Assembly: GCA_018056425.1 (NCBI GenBank)
Contig: JAGPFR010000003.1
Span: forward strand, 35,594 to 99,593
Length of the DNA: 64,000 bases
DNA from: Lachnospiraceae bacterium
GTDB lineage: Bacteria > Bacillota > Clostridia > Lachnospirales > Lachnospiraceae
Direction of reading: 5' to 3'
Part shown: positions 53,612 through 61,338 of the stretch, one piece after another
Position numbering within the stretch: position 1 is the stretch's first letter
Layout of the letters: each line of letters begins with the position of its first letter
Translations under genes and position numbers: made by a program
The notes under the pieces: generated by a model
Databases searched by the model: none
The model's input: only the letters and a program-made list of their open reading frames with translations
Told to the model about the DNA's origin: nothing

Positions 53612-54100
53612 CTAATATCCAAGACCCGAGATCCAATCACTTACCTCGTTTCGCACACTGTCCTGTTTATTCTGACAATCATTTCCGCGTATAGTCAACC
53701 CCTCAAGGATCGTGCTGTTTGGACATGCAGATTCGAGCTTCCTGTCAAAGCCGGACAACCCACTTCCCTCATGAGTAGAAAACAGAACAAGCGTCTTGCC
53801 TGATAATCCATCAGCATTTTGCTCAAAGAAGGTATACATAATCATCGGCCAGTCTCCCCACCGCACTGGTGCACCGATGTAGATCGTATCGTATGCGGAA
53901 AGGTCAGGTACTTCGCCTGCATATTCTGGTCTCGCATTATCATTCTGCTCCTGCTTTGCTACATCCGTAAGCTCAGCATATGTCATTGGATAATGATCAT
54001 CTACAGGTAATACTTCAAAAAGATTAGCTCCTGTCTGCTCTGCAATCATCTCTGCCACGATCGCAGTATTCCCTTTGTCTAATTGTAGCCAACAGCCTGT
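53612..54100 (-). pseudogene. Flavodoxin, 5'-truncated
   Basis: The remaining 160 residues match flavodoxin from KGNTAIVAEMIAEQTGANLFEV onward, with SAYDTIYIGAPVRWGDWPMIMYTF, LSGKTLVLFSTHEGSGLSGF and the CP near the end. The N-terminal strand and first part of the FMN phosphate loop (YFSxTGNT) are missing; upstream is the end of the SEC-C gene and a hairpin. There is no suitable start, so it is probably not functional. It marks one edge of the inserted defence cassette. Confidence 0.65.
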
Positions 54101-54120
54101 CCGTTTATAAGGACAGGCCT
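54097..54120 (-). terminator. Hairpin after the SEC-C gene
   Basis: GCCTGTCC pairs with GGACAGGC around TTATAAAC, directly at the junction with the flavodoxin remnant. No T run follows on the minus strand, so termination is uncertain. Confidence 0.45.
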
Positions 54121-54137
54121 TCAACACACTTATTTTA

Positions 54138-56501
54138 CTATTTTCTACCGCAACAACGCTTATATTTTTTTCCACTACCACAAATGCATGGTTCATTCGG
54201 ATAGATCTTCTTTTTATTATTCTGTACCAAAAACTGTTCTGTCCTACGCTCCACGATTTCCTTGCCAAAAGCTTTTAACTTGTCTCTTTGACTATCAGAA
54301 ATGTCACTCTGAGTAAATAAACGATACTGAACATCAATAATATTATCTTCTTTATTTAATACAATAGTAATTGACCAGCATTCTTTTCTTTCATTTTGCG
54401 CCAGATTGGCCAATATATACTCATCGCGACTTTCCTTAGGATAAAGTGTTATGTCAGGAACTTCCACAAACAAAGCGTAACTACAATCCATAAAGCTCAT
54501 TGCTGGAAGCATTCGACCAAGTCCCCTTTCTCTTCTGGCCAAATTACTTATCGATTCGTTAAAAGCTTCCCTGCTTTCAGCAGATAAATCCAAAAGAAAA
54601 TTGGAAAACAGTGTTACATTTTCTTTCTTGCTTATCACAATATTTAGAATCTTGACTATTTTGTCTGGAATAAATTGTATTGGCTTTTCATAATGAATTC
54701 CTACATGTATACTTGACAAAAACTTATCCAATTCTTCTCGGTATCCCATAAAGCTTACATGTTTTCCTTGACCAATATCTTTTGCCTGTAAAGAATACAT
54801 GTTATGAGAAATATACATTCCCAAATGGTCCAATTCATCCGATGTTGCAATTTCAGCAGTTTCGGTTGCAATAGTCCTTTGTTTTATAAAATGGATAAAC
54901 TGTAACGGATTTTCAAAATAGTATTTGTAAACCCACAAGTCATTAAGTGAAATTGCAATTATTCCCTCTTGAGCCTTAGCTATTTTAATCTTCTCCATTT
55001 GCGAAGCAAACTCGTTAAAATCAGAAACAGTAACATCAAACATGTATATTTGACTATATTTATCCATGTTGATAGAAAATGCCTCTGTATCCAGCTTATC
55101 ATCCGTATAAAATACCCGTTTATTGTCTGTTTCATCAGTAATATATTTTTTTGTACGTAGACATTGTTTTTCAGCTTTTTCCACAAGTGTCTCAAACGAT
55201 TCTTTATGTGCTGAAAAATCCATCATTGCTGGTGTATATACAAATGTTCCGGCTTTCACCTCTACAATCAGAAGCACGTCTTTATATTCAATTAGAATAT
55301 CATTTTCCGCTCCATCATTTTTCTTTAATGGATAATGGTTGGAATAATGTATTTTGCACCCAGGTAGCAACTTTTCAAATACACTTCCAACAGTCTTTTC
55401 GCTTGAATATGTCTGTGCATCTTTCCATCTTTTGCCATAATCTTTGCCATGGGATCTTATTGCTCGTTGAAGTGCGACATAAAAGTTATCAAATAAATTA
55501 TAATAATCAAAGCAATATACCGTTCCATCTAACTCTATAAACGGTTTATACTGAATCGGTAAATTCCAAATTGGCCATCCAGGATATTCTTCATGCGATA
55601 GGAATTCTCCATCACCATTAATGCCCAGGCATAAATCGCCAATAAACTCATCTGTCCATTTTGTATTCTCTCTTACATCAAATAACGACGTTCCGATTGC
55701 TTTTAATACGATTTCTTGGCTTTCTTTAATATAATCCTCGTCTGGTTCAGAACCATCAAATAGCTCCAACTTGTCCATTTGATTTCCTAAAGCCTTCATT
55801 GCATCTAGCCTTCCAGATGATAGATTCTTTTCTAATACTGTAAGCCCCGCTATAACATCCGAAACCGATAGTCCATATACTTCTTTCAGTAGTTCTGCCT
55901 GTGGTAATAGCAACTCCTTTAATATTGGGATTCTAAATGCCTGATACTGCTCACCTCGAACTTGTGACATCATCTGGGCAAGAACAATATACTCCTCGTC
56001 CTCTGGACTAAGCTTACCTATTTTCCGTTGTTGTGCAGTCCAATACATGTAGAATACAGGTATCTTGCTATATAACTCTATACAATAATTTGCAATTTCA
56101 TGATAAACCGGTTCTTGCTCATCGTCATTTATTTCATTTGACTTATCATGTTCCATCGAAACTAATAAACTCTGGATATATTCCACACTTCTTAATTGAA
56201 AATTAGCATCATTTGATATCTCTGATTCTGTAGTTACGTCTGTACTCATAAGTAACATCGAATTCATAGACGTTAAAAAATTAAACAACGTAAGTGGATT
56301 TACCAATGCAAGCTTTTCTTTTATTGTTTCGATGAGTGCATCAATCTTTTCTTTTTCTTCTACGTAATGACTAGACAACTCTGAAATCCATTTCTCATAT
56401 TGTTCATCAGTCATATTATTATGTGTCACTACAGTATTACCAAATCTTGCCACCTCAATCATCCCATTAGTAAAGTATTCATCAGGCTTTACTTTTTTCA
56501 A
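54138..56501 (-). CDS. PD-(D/E)XK-like protein with C-terminal SEC-C motif (third gene of the defence cassette)
   Basis: 787 residues, no membrane segment. Residues about 370-460 contain a nuclease-type core: E375 in SVFEKLLPG, D401 in AENDILIEY, E414 and K416 in LLIVEVKAG, which fits E...D...ExK of PD-(D/E)XK enzymes. The N-terminal 350 residues are helical. The C terminus is a SEC-C zinc motif, CICGSGKKYKRCC (772-784). Start is a TTG about 12 nt after GGAAGG. It follows the helicase gene by 43 bp in the same direction with the same low GC, so it likely works with it; the substrate is unknown. Confidence 0.72.
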   Translation of the reverse strand: MKKVKPDEYFTNGMIEVARFGNTVVTHNNMTDEQYEKWISELSSHYVEEKEKIDALIETIKEKLALVNPLTLFNFLTSMNSMLLMSTDVTTESEISNDANFQLRSVEYIQSLLVSMEHDKSNEINDDEQEPVYHEIANYCIELYSKIPVFYMYWTAQQRKIGKLSPEDEEYIVLAQMMSQVRGEQYQAFRIPILKELLLPQAELLKEVYGLSVSDVIAGLTVLEKNLSSGRLDAMKALGNQMDKLELFDGSEPDEDYIKESQEIVLKAIGTSLFDVRENTKWTDEFIGDLCLGINGDGEFLSHEEYPGWPIWNLPIQYKPFIELDGTVYCFDYYNLFDNFYVALQRAIRSHGKDYGKRWKDAQTYSSEKTVGSVFEKLLPGCKIHYSNHYPLKKNDGAENDILIEYKDVLLIVEVKAGTFVYTPAMMDFSAHKESFETLVEKAEKQCLRTKKYITDETDNKRVFYTDDKLDTEAFSINMDKYSQIYMFDVTVSDFNEFASQMEKIKIAKAQEGIIAISLNDLWVYKYYFENPLQFIHFIKQRTIATETAEIATSDELDHLGMYISHNMYSLQAKDIGQGKHVSFMGYREELDKFLSSIHVGIHYEKPIQFIPDKIVKILNIVISKKENVTLFSNFLLDLSAESREAFNESISNLARRERGLGRMLPAMSFMDCSYALFVEVPDITLYPKESRDEYILANLAQNERKECWSITIVLNKEDNIIDVQYRLFTQSDISDSQRDKLKAFGKEIVERRTEQFLVQNNKKKIYPNEPCICGSGKKYKRCCGRK

Positions 56502-56544
56502 ATATTATCAGTCCTTCCTTTTTCATGCATATCCTTTATTCATA

Positions 56545-59500
56545 TTATTTTATTGCCTCTGCAAATCTATTAATAAAGTACGCGGGATAAGATTCTAGAG
56601 TCTCCTTTATCACTTCAAAATGAGATTTGATTACTGAAATAATTATGTCATCAGAAATACCCTGTTCCCCAATAATATCAGTAACTTTATCAGCAATAAG
56701 TCTTTCGTTACATATTTTTTCACAAATCGAAATAGATGTCTCAGATGATACTCCGTATTTAACTTTCTTTTGCAGATCCATCATCCCCTGGACATTTACT
56801 CCGTCATCCTCCAGATAATCAATAATGTTTCCTATACAAAAACTCAATTGAAAAGATATACTCTGACCACATTGCTTTTCTATATCTGTAACTTTTATAC
56901 CAGTCATTTTTTCGATTGAATAAAAAGTATCTCCATTAACCCAGCCTGCACAAATTGTTTCATCTATACAATCATCTTCATATATAGAATTGTAAAATTC
57001 CACAATGACTGATAACAGTTTCTCCTGCGGATAAAAAACGGTATTTAACTCCTTTTCAGAAATCAATTCATTTACAGCTTCTGCAATATTAATATCAATC
57101 ATAGATTTTGACATCACCTTAGCAAATATACTTTTTTCAGCAATCTTTTTTGCCAATGATACAAATAACTTTTCTAATAGACATTTTTCATCTTCCGAAG
57201 CCAAATAGTATGCCAAGGTCTGCTTAACCACCCCAGCCGATTCATCTACAACTTGCTGTAGGTCTTCAATAGAAATGTCTACATTTTTCCCTGTTTCATA
57301 ACAAAGCTCGTTCTCTATAGTTCCAATTATTTTTCGATAAGAATTTACCTTGGTTTGTATGGTTTTTATATGATAATCTTTTTTATCATATTCTTCATCC
57401 AAAGCACTAATCAAAAGACCTTTCAAATCCTTATCCCAGTCATTATTAATATTATCTATGATATAATTGATTATTGCTTCCCCACTGAATACAACATCAT
57501 AATCAATTTCCATGTTCCTAAGCAGCATTAGTATTGAGCTGCTACAAGCCTCCGCATTATTAGGGTCAAATAAAGCGATAGCATCTTTCCAAAGATATGC
57601 CCCTCTTCCACCATTCCTATCATCATACAGTTTAGGATCCGAAATAAGAACACTGCCTTCTGTATATACTCCAGACCGAGCTGTCCTTCCAATTAAGTTT
57701 TGAAAACTTCTGGTTGTTATCATTTTTGTAGCCGAATTCAAACTGGTCATAACCATGTATTTGATTGGAATATTGACTCCCTGCGCCAAAGTTGAGGTAC
57801 ATACAACAACCTTTATTTTTTCTTTTCGAAAGGCAAACTCCACTGCAAGCCTGAGCCCATTAGGTAATGTTGAATAATGCGGAAATATACCCGCATTTGC
57901 CCCCATTGCAAAAATTGATTTTTCCCCATAATACTCTGAAATAAACTTTTGAAGTCTTTCAATTTCATTTACATCAGAGCAATCCATAATATTGGCAAAA
58001 CTATAATTCTTATTTGCAACTTCAACAAGTCTTTTTATTACTGTAGAAGCGAATCTTCTTTGACTGACATAAATGGCCACTCCACCTTTTTTGCACAAAA
58101 GATTAGCATAATATAACGCTATATCATTGGCCTTTTTCTCAGGAAAAATCTTTTTCTTGCTTCCTCTCCTAGTTTTTAATTCAGACACCCTAATTGCTCT
58201 TGGAATATAGAAATCTTCCTCTTCAAATGAATCTGAATAATAATGAATCTCTTTTTCAGATGTCAAAAATCCAACTACTTTAGGTGTACTCCTAATACTA
58301 AAATCAAACGCAACAACCCCTTTTTCTCCGAAAACCCATTGTTTGATAGATTCAGCATTGGATAAAACTGCCGACATAATAACTAATTGTTGACTATCAT
58401 TAAGATGACTCTTTATATCCATCATTAAAAACTCATATAAAGCCCCTCTGCTCATGTCATCAAACATATGCCCTTCATCAAAGATAAAGAGATCTATAAG
58501 TGGTAAAATATCCGGCTGATGATGAAGGATAAACTGTAGTTTTTCTGGTGTACATATCAATATTTTGTTATCTGACGAATTATTAAAAGCATCCACATAA
58601 TCTATTTCCAAAACATCTGAAAATTGATTGATTGCAGCATCCTTTACAAAAGATTTCCGCATATCACCAGATATCTCGTTGCAAAGAGCTCTTAGCGGCG
58701 CTATAATCAGTGCAATTTTACCTCTACCGGACAAAAACATTGATTGAATGATGAGTTCAATACTCTTCGTTTTACACACGCCTGTTGGCAACTGTACTAT
58801 CGCATTTTTTCCACCTAAGAGTCCTTTCTCACCAATAAGTATTTGTGAAGGCCACATCATTCGAACGGAATTATTCTTTTTAAAATAATCGGCCCAAATA
58901 TCAAAACTTAAGTTAGAATATTGAGGTAATAACGTGTATGCCGATTTTTCACGTGCTATTATAATAACTGCGAAAATACTCTCTACCCAAAATAAATCAG
59001 TCTCCTGCACACTATTAAATGATAGTTCGCGTATATCGCACATTTTTTCAATAATGTCATTGTCAACATTTTCTTTAAACGAGCTTTCAAAAGCATCAAT
59101 AACACCATCATGAATATCACTCAGTCTGCGTCCAAAGAAAATAATACTAAATATGTTGGCTAAAACACCTCTAAAATCGCTTGGAACATCTAATTTCCAT
59201 ACCTCTTTTATCATAACTAACGAACTTCCATAATCACCATGGAAGAAATAAGCCATAGTGCCCATAAGAACGAAGTCAAGATCATGCATTTCTTGCTCTC
59301 TTGATTGTAATGCAGCGTCATAATACTCGGCACACATAGAAAGATGTTCTTTATATGAATCCATCAATTCTTTATTCTTATCTATTACCGCCTGCGCATA
59401 TTCTGAAATAACATAAACCGTTGGAAAAGCTAACTCCCTGTAATTTAAAGGAAACCTTGGATAATCTTTATGTTCAATTTCGTATTCTAAAAGTTTTACT

Positions 59501-59547
59501 TTTGCTTTTTGATACTTAAGCATATACTCTGCTTTAGAAAAACTCAT
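56545..59547 (-). CDS. hamB: SF2 helicase, HamB-like
   Basis: 1000 residues. N-terminal 230 are helical. Helicase core: Walker A LPTGVCKT (254-260), DEGH box (357-360, variant of DEAH), SAV motif III (392-394), and motif VI QNLIGRTARSG (616-626), with an NIPIKY motif V region. C-terminal 350 residues are of unknown function. The Walker A has Cys where Gly/Ala/Ser is usual (PTGxGKT). ATG at 59547 overlaps the nuclease stop as ATGA after AGAGGTG. In Hachiman the HamA nuclease and HamB helicase are encoded in this overlapping order. Confidence 0.78.
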   Translation of the reverse strand: MSFSKAEYMLKYQKAKVKLLEYEIEHKDYPRFPLNYRELAFPTVYVISEYAQAVIDKNKELMDSYKEHLSMCAEYYDAALQSREQEMHDLDFVLMGTMAYFFHGDYGSSLVMIKEVWKLDVPSDFRGVLANIFSIIFFGRRLSDIHDGVIDAFESSFKENVDNDIIEKMCDIRELSFNSVQETDLFWVESIFAVIIIAREKSAYTLLPQYSNLSFDIWADYFKKNNSVRMMWPSQILIGEKGLLGGKNAIVQLPTGVCKTKSIELIIQSMFLSGRGKIALIIAPLRALCNEISGDMRKSFVKDAAINQFSDVLEIDYVDAFNNSSDNKILICTPEKLQFILHHQPDILPLIDLFIFDEGHMFDDMSRGALYEFLMMDIKSHLNDSQQLVIMSAVLSNAESIKQWVFGEKGVVAFDFSIRSTPKVVGFLTSEKEIHYYSDSFEEEDFYIPRAIRVSELKTRRGSKKKIFPEKKANDIALYYANLLCKKGGVAIYVSQRRFASTVIKRLVEVANKNYSFANIMDCSDVNEIERLQKFISEYYGEKSIFAMGANAGIFPHYSTLPNGLRLAVEFAFRKEKIKVVVCTSTLAQGVNIPIKYMVMTSLNSATKMITTRSFQNLIGRTARSGVYTEGSVLISDPKLYDDRNGGRGAYLWKDAIALFDPNNAEACSSSILMLLRNMEIDYDVVFSGEAIINYIIDNINNDWDKDLKGLLISALDEEYDKKDYHIKTIQTKVNSYRKIIGTIENELCYETGKNVDISIEDLQQVVDESAGVVKQTLAYYLASEDEKCLLEKLFVSLAKKIAEKSIFAKVMSKSMIDINIAEAVNELISEKELNTVFYPQEKLLSVIVEFYNSIYEDDCIDETICAGWVNGDTFYSIEKMTGIKVTDIEKQCGQSISFQLSFCIGNIIDYLEDDGVNVQGMMDLQKKVKYGVSSETSISICEKICNERLIADKVTDIIGEQGISDDIIISVIKSHFEVIKETLESYPAYFINRFAEAIK

Positions 59548-60374
59548 TTTGTGCACCTCTCAAATACTTCGTGTGTTAGTTTCATTAGATTTTTTCCGTG
59601 CACAAAAAAAATACAATTTCCATGACATAGTTTAAGATCATTACCGTCAATTTCAGGAACAATGTGTATTTTTTCTTTCCCGACAGTTACTTCATCTAAC
59701 TCTACAAGGCTTGTGATGCCAGCCGGAACATAGAATAATGAATAATCATACTTAGTTTTTAGTTGAAATCGTTCAATATCCTTAGATTCATCTATCTTGC
59801 CATAATGCTTTAATTTTTTTCTCATATAGTTTAACGTATGCGCTACTCTATACTCGTCCTTAACAGAATCTTCTACCGCACTTTTTATAACCGATGTATC
59901 TGCTTTGGATAAAACTGCCTTTACCTCTGCAGCAACTAGTTTGTCTTTGGATGATGGGGTTTTGTCTTCTTTTTCAAACTGGTATCCTATAACATCAGTA
60001 CCATGCTCAGATACAGTTGTTCCAGACATATTTGTTTGTCTTATTCTCGGAACATGAAATCCATAAACAAATTCTAGTAAGTCAGATATTAAGATTTCTG
60101 TTATTGTATTAGATCTTGATGTTGGCCCTAAATGAACATCTTTTTGAGGAATTACACTAGACTTTAAATATTCTTCTGATGTTAATCCTAGTAATGTACA
60201 ATCCTCTTCTAACTCATCATCCGATATATAATGTCTTCTAATATGTAAAGCCCAATCATCTAATACATTCGGATCATTATTATATTCAATACGATAGCAT
60301 TTAAGCGGTATTGAATTATCCTTAATCACACCATCTTCTTTAATTATCCAACGTAGATACTCTGGTTTATTCAA
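59544..60374 (-). CDS. hamA: HamA-like PD-(D/E)XK nuclease (DUF1837-type)
   Basis: 276 residues. Nuclease core in about 90-160 of the longer numbering: conserved Glu in NTITEILISDLLEF, Asp in EHGTDVIGY, and ExK in VAAEVKAVL. This order matches the HamA/AbpA family by general pattern; I cannot run a profile search. C-terminal part has beta strands (IHIVPEI, NCIFFVHG). Start TTG at 60374 lies 7 nt after GGGAG; an earlier TTG at 60389 would include the ribosome site. Just downstream of a helicase fragment and coupled to the helicase. Confidence 0.65.
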   Translation of the reverse strand: MNKPEYLRWIIKEDGVIKDNSIPLKCYRIEYNNDPNVLDDWALHIRRHYISDDELEEDCTLLGLTSEEYLKSSVIPQKDVHLGPTSRSNTITEILISDLLEFVYGFHVPRIRQTNMSGTTVSEHGTDVIGYQFEKEDKTPSSKDKLVAAEVKAVLSKADTSVIKSAVEDSVKDEYRVAHTLNYMRKKLKHYGKIDESKDIERFQLKTKYDYSLFYVPAGITSLVELDEVTVGKEKIHIVPEIDGNDLKLCHGNCIFFVHGKNLMKLTHEVFERCTK

Positions 60375-60402
60375 ACTAATCTCTCCCAACTACACAATCA
60401 AT

Positions 60403-60606
60403 TCACTCAGCCCGCCCATAGCAAGTAACGCATGCACTCTTTCTTGCTCTTGTAAGAGTAACATAAAGCAGACACTTCTCCTCTGTTCTGAATTCCTCGA
60501 GAGAAATGTCATCTTCAAAGTCTGCTCTTGTTCCAAACGGAAGCACCTTTTTGTTTACCGCAACAGCAAAGACATAATCGAACTCAAGCCCTTTTACTCT
60601 ATGCAT
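60403..60606 (-). pseudogene. UvrD-family helicase, C-terminal fragment
   Basis: 67 residues that match the last part of UvrD/Rep-type helicases: MHRVKGLEFDYVFAVAVNKKVLP (motif V region) and EEKCLLYVTLTRARKSA (motif VI). All upstream motifs are missing; the homology begins exactly at the tail of the broken ParE gene, at an ATGCAT that both share. A deletion probably fused the two genes. Confidence 0.7.
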
Positions 60607-60829
60607 GCCTCTCCTGAAGCCTTTTATGCACATCCGATGCTCCATACAAAACATCAGTAACGGTAACCACACCCGGATCAACGACATATCAGATCAGATA
60701 ATTATCCACTATCATCCTATGAATCCCCATAGAATGTTCCGGAGCAAGCAGCTTCTTTGCAATATACTCATATAACGCTTCCATATCATCAAGCGCCTCA
60801 TCAGTGATATTAACTATGTATCTATCCAT
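60599..60829 (-). pseudogene. parE: ParE/RelE-type toxin, broken
   Basis: Starts MDRYIVNITDEALDDMEALY, the family start, then AKKLLAPEHSMG. Then it jumps to IHRMIVDNYLI, a TGA stop at 60691-60689, and continues in the same frame with YVVDPGVVTVTDVLYGASDV to a TAG at 60601-60599. So a middle segment of about 30 residues is deleted and a nonsense codon is present. The toxin is expected to be inactive. Confidence 0.75.
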
Positions 60830-61134
60830 CAGCTGTGGTTCTCCCGAAATCGGCTAAATGCTTCTGCAGCATTCTGTGTTCGACCGGACTTGTACGCTTC
60901 ATATCCTTTTTGTATCTTGGCATGAATCTGGTCTTCACTCATCTTCGTCGCATCTATGCTTTCCGATGCATTGGGCAAAGTAACCGCAAAAGGTATTCCG
61001 CCGACAAGGACAATCTGGTTTAAAAACATATCAACAGCAGTAGACATCGGTATACCTAAACGCTCCAATACGGACTCCGCATCTTGCTTCAATGTGGGAT
61101 TTACTCTTAAATTTAGTGTTGCAGTTTTTTCCAT
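60829..61134 (-). CDS. relB: RelB/DinJ-type antitoxin
   Basis: 101 residues: N-terminal ribbon-helix-helix (ATLNLRVNPTLKQDAESVLERLGI, STAVDMFLNQIVLVGGIPF) and C-terminal flexible part. GGAGGT 7 nt before ATG. It overlaps the broken toxin by one base. It should still bind its operator. Confidence 0.88.
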   Translation of the reverse strand: MEKTATLNLRVNPTLKQDAESVLERLGIPMSTAVDMFLNQIVLVGGIPFAVTLPNASESIDATKMSEDQIHAKIQKGYEAYKSGRTQNAAEAFSRFRENHS

Positions 61135-61159
61135 AATGGCACCTCCATTTAGCTCTACT

Positions 61160-61178
61160 GTAACGACATTGTTGTTAC
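61160..61178. promoter_or_regulatory. RelB operator inside its promoter
   Basis: GTAACGACA-T-TGTTGTTAC, one mismatch in nine-base arms. It lies in the spacer between -35 TTGACG and -10 TACAGT on the minus strand (17-bp spacing), so autorepression is likely. Confidence 0.7.
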
Positions 61179-61297
61179 GCGTCAAGTAGTTATTCCCATA
61201 AAATAGCCCATAAAATAGCTCCTGCCAGTTAATTGCAGGAGCCGTTCTGTATATGACATATTCTAATGTCACTATCCGGAATATGCACAGCACAAAC

Positions 61298-61338
61298 ATA
61301 AAAATTCACTGTTTTTATGAAAAACAGTGAATTTTTAC
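61298..61338 (-). terminator. Terminator of the gene at 61349
   Basis: AAAATTCACTGTTTTT pairs almost perfectly with AAAACAGTGAATTTTT, 11 nt after the gene stop. A second hairpin (GCTCCTGC/GCAGGAGC) lies near 61205-61242. Confidence 0.8.

Follow-up and report, generated by a model that had tools for sequence, protein, structure and literature searches.

In the Hachiman defence system, HamB senses damaged DNA and HamA degrades DNA, according to its description (Tuck et al. 2024, PMC12278908). In HamMAB, HamM, a nuclease of the metallo-β-lactamase (MBL) fold, is encoded upstream of a protease-HamA fusion whose HamA active site has been lost (PMC12799240). Hachiman, ARMADA type II (ArmA to ArmD, PMC12458937), and the acquisition of an extra nuclease by Hachiman, as with HamM, are already known. 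Here we analyzed a locus within a 64,000-nucleotide stretch, hereafter the window, of contig JAGPFR010000003.1 (assembly GCA_018056425.1, a draft of 84 contigs and 90.8% complete) from a Lachnospiraceae bacterium. In this locus hamA and hamB are followed by gene 3, which encodes a predicted nuclease with a SEC-C tail. An earlier note made from the sequence alone had proposed an extended Hachiman or a new system. That apparent three-part system gives way here to a clearer picture of known systems stacked in an operon and then cut down: the locus is probably the surviving 3' part of a composite operon of ARMADA type II, then Hachiman, then a separate nuclease gene, from which ARMADA has been lost.

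The hamA, hamB, and gene 3 open reading frames (ORFs) are all full length and on the minus strand, and the G+C content was 0.33-0.35 over positions 54001-60000 in 2-kb windows versus 0.41-0.51 over 1-54000, so that the three same-strand, AT-rich genes of the earlier note were borne out. HamA (59544..60374, minus strand) has 276 aa if started at the TTG at 60374 or 281 aa from the TTG at 60389. It matched the PADLOC HamA model (PDLC00161) with an E of 2.3e-72, and Pfam HamA (DUF1837, PF08878) at 23.1 bits, slightly below the cut-off of 25, with no further Pfam domain above cut-off; the profile suggested as a check fell just short. Residues E98, D132, E155, and K157 (281-aa numbering) were invariant in all six aligned HamAs, among them the window copy and that of the related locus L035, which are 95% identical to each other. 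HamB (56545..59547, minus strand, 1000 aa) starts at the ATG at 59547 in an ATGA overlap with hamA and matched PADLOC HamB (PDLC00188; E 5e-266) as well as Pfam DEAD and Helicase_C. By homology, the nuclease-pattern protein and the SF2 helicase singled out earlier are HamA and HamB of Hachiman.

Directly upstream of hamA in genome G086 (L057/L035) lies the gene for a 699-aa UvrD helicase, the last member of a four-gene operon. Its other three products are an SNF2 helicase of DrmD-like type (949 aa), a type IIG/DrmMI-like methyltransferase (1575 aa), and a DruE-like helicase (2121 aa) that carries an MrfA zinc-binding domain. The best PADLOC matches (DrmD-, type IIG/DrmMI-, DruE-, and GajB-like) follow the order ArmA-ArmB-ArmC-ArmD, and judged by them the L035 trio forms the tail of an ARMADA type II-like operon, a context that the earlier note had missed; this assignment joins PADLOC best matches to the published description (PMC12458937) rather than to an ARMADA-specific profile, and the RelE-like N-terminus was named by appearance. 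L001 is the same as L035 from mid-ArmC onward. In L035, the distance from the ArmD stop to the hamA start is 0 or 15 bp, depending on the TTG chosen, with GGGAGAG in between. The main text of PMC12458937 mentions neither Hachiman nor HamA, and within the literature searched, consisting of main texts mostly outside subscription journals, we found neither an ARMADA-Hachiman operon nor a SEC-C nuclease family joined to Hachiman or described as a module.

In the window, homology to L035 was confined to a 6510-bp block from 60606 down to 54097, with none upstream. On the minus strand from 60606 to 54095, the ArmD remnant, HamA, HamB, gene 3, and a hairpin follow one another. The remnant (60390..60606) preserves about the last 70 codons of ArmD, the final few out of frame, and the ORF at 60403-60687 matched Pfam UvrD_C with an E of 8.8e-12. 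ArmA, ArmB, ArmC, and most of ArmD were absent from the window locus, and ArmD was not found in the window genome at E values up to 1e-100, in an assembly of the completeness given above. Because so little of ArmD is kept, the window trio can be regarded as a decapitated remnant. The 5' junction (60599..60606) is an 8-bp sequence, ATGCATAG, that occurs both in armD and where a relE-like gene ends, and may mark a microhomology breakpoint. At the other end, the hairpin (54095..54118, minus strand), 19 bp beyond gene 3, is shared with L035 and L001 apart from one swapped base pair; homology ends just beyond it and the copies then diverge. Family identities, the gene order shared with L035 and L001, homology boundaries, and motif conservation are all read directly from sequence.

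The edges of the block were inspected as well. An in-frame stop interrupts the RelE-like gene (about 60599-60829, minus strand; named by appearance), which follows a RelB/DinJ antitoxin gene at 60829-61299 and whose 3' end directly adjoins the ArmD remnant. On the far side, the defence block stops just upstream of a 5'-clipped flavodoxin gene (53612-54073, minus strand), which apparently lacks its 5' end, the Pfam match beginning at profile position 11. No empty insertion site was found when the downstream flank was compared with 12 genus genomes, the only matches being partial ones in 3 others. A scan for promoters and terminators gave counts near those of shuffled sequence, with 36 promoter-like hits versus a mean of 32.3 and 3 terminator-like hits versus 3.4.

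We then considered what follows such operons elsewhere. Six of 387 family genomes yielded ArmD; ArmA to ArmC were looked at in G086, together with the upstream helicase end in G303. The 3' neighbour of ArmD is HamA-HamB-gene 3 in G086 and Gabija GajA-GajB in two of the six loci (G294 and G303). In G314 it is a helicase-like protein of 999 aa that PADLOC models matched weakly, in G320 it is a 104-aa ORF, and in G325 nothing was recognised. On another contig of G303, BrxC, PglZ, and BrxL precede a hamA that starts 1 bp after the brxL stop. This genome carries BREX then HamAB on one and ArmD then Gabija on the other of its contigs C18 and C21 (L058, L079, and L083); the labels PglX/BrxA/BrxB, like IS66 and RelE, were assigned from appearance and position, not by profile. 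In G319, a type II/III-like methyltransferase gene and a PDC-S60-like gene lie upstream of hamA, and we recognised no operon of this kind before the hamA of G013 or that of G334. Among plasmids, HamA was absent from all seven ArmD loci examined (47 plasmid records match ArmD), an eighth ArmD match sits in a BREX context and also lacks HamA, and none of three HamA loci examined follows a methyltransferase operon (11 plasmid records match HamA). The accessible text of a BREX survey (PMC12839542) names HamB only as an example of a Ski2 helicase.

These neighbours prompt a tentative generalisation, rather less likely than not: that ARMADA II and BREX operons of this family, as modification-based defences, may possess a 3' docking slot in which modules that sense the state of DNA, Hachiman or Gabija, are interchangeable, sometimes with a further stand-alone SEC-C nuclease added. 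The pattern is so far local to the bacterial family and has not been seen on plasmids. If true, each of these transcription units would combine two or three layers of defence, the window would show slot contents persisting after the parent system was lost, and a slot after ArmD and brxL, should it be a real rule, would predict which systems cooperate. A further reading is that ARMADA II, Hachiman, and gene 3 are layered functionally within a single transcription unit, with methylation acting first, the damage response next, and a further nuclease last, the window being a broken version. The near-abutment of ArmD and HamA in L035 speaks for this, as do the family parallels of Gabija after ArmD and HamA after brxL; the plasmid loci give it no support, and adjacency alone does not show cooperation. 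We consider functional layering possible, though on balance unlikely.

The window copy might alternatively be decaying debris with no present function. Its ARMADA-like head is gone with only the ArmD tail left, the relE-like and flavodoxin genes at its edges look broken, and residue 258 in motif I of HamB is Cys (TGT, 58774..58776, minus strand) where it is Gly in all five aligned relatives (L035, L001, G303, G319, and G013). The intact helicase motif I expected of an active Hachiman is therefore lacking from window HamB. The Gly-to-Cys change may weaken ATP binding or use; it may also be a sign of decay, or an assembly error in the draft genome. Because of it, the Hachiman arm of the window copy is possibly impaired, while the active-site residues of HamA and gene 3 are retained, and we file the pair as Hachiman by descent, its activity in this copy being doubtful. 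Against wholesale decay stand the three full-length ORFs and the mostly synonymous changes relative to L035 (dN/dS about 0.09-0.12), in addition to the chance that the Cys is an assembly artefact. We regard complete loss of function as rather unlikely.

The composite-operon reading treats gene 3 as a separate element, and its linkage to Hachiman was examined from both directions. Gene 3 (54138..56501, minus strand, 787 aa) starts with a TTG at 56501, 43 bp after the hamB stop, and ends at 54138. It adjoins HamAB in 3 of 19 gene 3 loci, namely the window, L001, and L035, which share one cassette. HamA was not found in the other 16, of which L002 and L037 offer little upstream sequence (576 bp and 1.4 kb, respectively). 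A HamA profile run against the 18 gene 3 loci other than the window matched L001 and L035 alone, and a gene 3 profile run against seven other HamA loci (L058-L061 and L092-L094) matched none, six of these being informative because L060 is cut off downstream of HamA. Some of the loci under study had gone into building these profiles, and positive matches therefore arise partly by construction; the absences are informative. Of 397 genomes in the family, 6 carry HamA and, among the matches listed, 4 carry full-length gene 3, with 2 genomes carrying both, and among 398 phylum genomes gene 3 occurs in 3 and HamA in 2 (the window genome and G720), the window genome being counted in both. The trio represents two lineages, because L004 and L035 are one record and the gene 3 DNA of L001 is 99.7% identical to that of L035. 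The recurrent three-gene order that a neighbourhood survey was to look for thus amounted to a single cassette, and a three-gene Hachiman as a conserved system was rejected on the genome counts and the reciprocal locus profiles.

A true three-component Hachiman, in which HamB would release or activate gene 3 as a second effector analogous to HamM in HamMAB, is improbable: the shared order, strand, short gap, and 3' hairpin, the HamM precedent for a second nuclease (PMC12799240), and the 2 co-occurrences among the listed matches versus 0.06 expected by chance (6 x 4/397) favour it, but those two genomes hold that single cassette, most gene 3 loci and the informative HamA loci lack the partner, the traits reported for HamMAB (an MBL-fold nuclease, and a protease joined to a HamA that has lost its active site) were not seen here, and gene 3 has diverged separately from hamAB.

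That separate divergence is marked. Between the window and L035, the synonymous divergence (dS) is 0.21 for hamA, 0.40 for hamB, and 1.27 for gene 3, with nonsynonymous divergence (dN) of 0.024, 0.047, and 0.111, respectively. Within hamB, codons 401-1000 have a dS of about 0.2, which jumps to 1.27 at the hamB/gene 3 boundary. The gene 3 copy of L003, in which no HamA was found within 5 kb upstream, differs from that of L001 by a dS of only 0.37 (370 codons), compared with 1.28 between the window and L001. The window becomes homologous to L002 at 17 bp, and to L003 at 25 bp, before the gene 3 start. From the step in dS at the boundary and from the L003 copy being closer than the window's to that of L001, gene 3 evidently moves by itself. 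Two considerations pull the other way: codons 1-400 of hamB also have a high dS, about 0.8 versus L035, so that recombination inside the locus could have lowered hamA and hamB divergence with no exchange of gene 3; and the trio is intact in three genomes (two non-redundant lineages), gene 3 lying immediately downstream of hamB and the 3' hairpin being shared, which may reflect a functional link. The value for hamB codons 1-400 indicates that the whole block was shuffled by recombination and leaves the direction of exchange unfixable. On the composite-operon reading, the trio looks like stacked known defences and not a new three-part machine.

Lachnospiraceae-type genomes (L001-L004, L036, and L037) contain gene 3 homologues, as do two more distant genomes of the same phylum (L062 and L063) and 11 plasmid records, among them Lactococcus, Photobacterium, Rhizobium, Aliarcobacter, and haloarchaea. 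Ten of the 11 plasmid records were examined as loci, and extra partial matches (Sinorhizobium and Rhizobium sp.) were left aside. Of the 397 family genomes, 393 gave a match to gene 3, with all but four of the listed matches covering only residues 706 onward, the SEC-C end. Away from HamAB, the upstream neighbours vary. The end of a UvrD-type helicase gene precedes gene 3 in L002, a gene annotated as Lit family in L042, and unknown genes in L037 and L043; other loci have no recognisable partner. In L003 (3920-6162), a caspase-like (Peptidase_C14) gene and a gene for a 131-aa protein of no known family precede the homologue, which is cut short beside an IS66-like element. In L063 (6473-10981), genes for a trypsin-like protease and an Mrr-type nuclease precede it. 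In L038 (5358-8718), an IS30 transposase gene interrupts the Lactococcus plasmid homologue, which has no SEC-C tail; a SEC-C protein is annotated beyond it. The SEC-C nuclease family, seen here in lineages from Lachnospiraceae to haloarchaea and, for the window protein, covered by PADLOC models at the tail only, is a candidate for an independent defence.

The nuclease prediction for gene 3 draws on motif conservation. Across 17 aligned members, P320, E368, E399, D401, E414, K416, Q446, R449, L522, R542, and E556 are invariant, and all are present in the window protein. The motif order E...D...ExK (E368, D401, E414, and K416) is kept in all 17, and the putative nuclease core (residues 368-449; 55155..55400, minus strand) holds seven of the invariant positions. 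The earlier note had named E375, D401, E414, and K416; the last three stand, whereas residue 375 is Phe and the invariant Glu is E368. The SEC-C zinc tail it had noticed (residues 769-786; 54144..54197, minus strand) was confirmed as the sole Pfam match to the full-length protein (PF02810, E 9.4e-9), with no MBL match. Because SEC-C is present in 11 of the 17 aligned members, it appears to be an optional part. The PADLOC models that matched full-length gene 3 aligned to this tail only, as did the PHROGs matches, and with the nuclease domain by itself PADLOC gave nothing up to an E of 0.01. No relative of gene 3 was found in the viral and phage collections.

Among the 17 members, a CARF_PDDEXK-type model and two further PADLOC models each matched one (best E 2.8e-4), and SduA_C matched one member (E 4.7e-4). 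Pfam NERD matched 13 of 17 at E up to 1, the best at 1.6e-5. An hhalign alignment of the family profile with one NERD protein spans the E-D-ExK-QxxR motifs. The helix and strand order in two AlphaFold models, made from 5 sequences for the full length and 4 for the domain, weakly fits a PD-(D/E)XK core. Several results count against the nuclease assignment. The window protein is sub-threshold for NERD (E 0.053), and the hhalign match is weak (E 0.013, probability 3.3%), no better than the HamA yardstick (E 0.011 over 16 columns), other yardsticks being Mrr (0.41) and an unrelated acetyltransferase (0.16). Both models are poor, with a mean predicted local distance difference test score of 42.5 for the full length and 38.9 for the domain. 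Sequence searches of the PDB gave nothing significant (best E 0.28 and 0.27).

How the locus might work can be sketched from published relatives. HamB would patrol DNA and, on encountering damaged DNA, would unleash HamA, which would degrade DNA inside the cell. Gene 3 may encode a DNA nuclease complete in itself, working as Shedu and other solitary PD-(D/E)XK defence proteins do: the long helical region at its N-terminus would keep it inactive, and a signal from a phage, possibly sensed via the SEC-C zinc tail, would switch it on. The analogy to Shedu and to NERD proteins suggests a predicted nuclease that acts alone and only under certain conditions; it would add a parallel layer and would not be a HamAB subunit.

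Set beside the known systems, gene 3 is like Shedu (SduA) and NERD nucleases in its PD-(D/E)XK motif order and in the several loci without other recognisable system genes. It is unlike them in falling below the NERD cut-off, in having no match to the SduA C-terminal domain, and in its long N-terminal region and SEC-C tail. The locus resembles HamMAB (PMC12799240) as a Hachiman with an extra acquired nuclease gene, but here that gene lies downstream, its product has PD-(D/E)XK motifs, and HamA stands unfused and retains its active-site residues. It resembles Hachiman (PMC12278908) in HamA and HamB homology, gene order, overlap, and HamA active-site residues, and departs from it in the motif I Cys of HamB, in the gene 3 that follows, and in the ARMADA-like operon that, in close relatives, leads into HamAB. 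With ARMADA type II (PMC12458937) it shares the end of ArmD, and the genes upstream in L057/L035 agree in type and order; unlike that system, the window has lost ArmA to ArmC and most of ArmD and carries HamAB and gene 3 attached.

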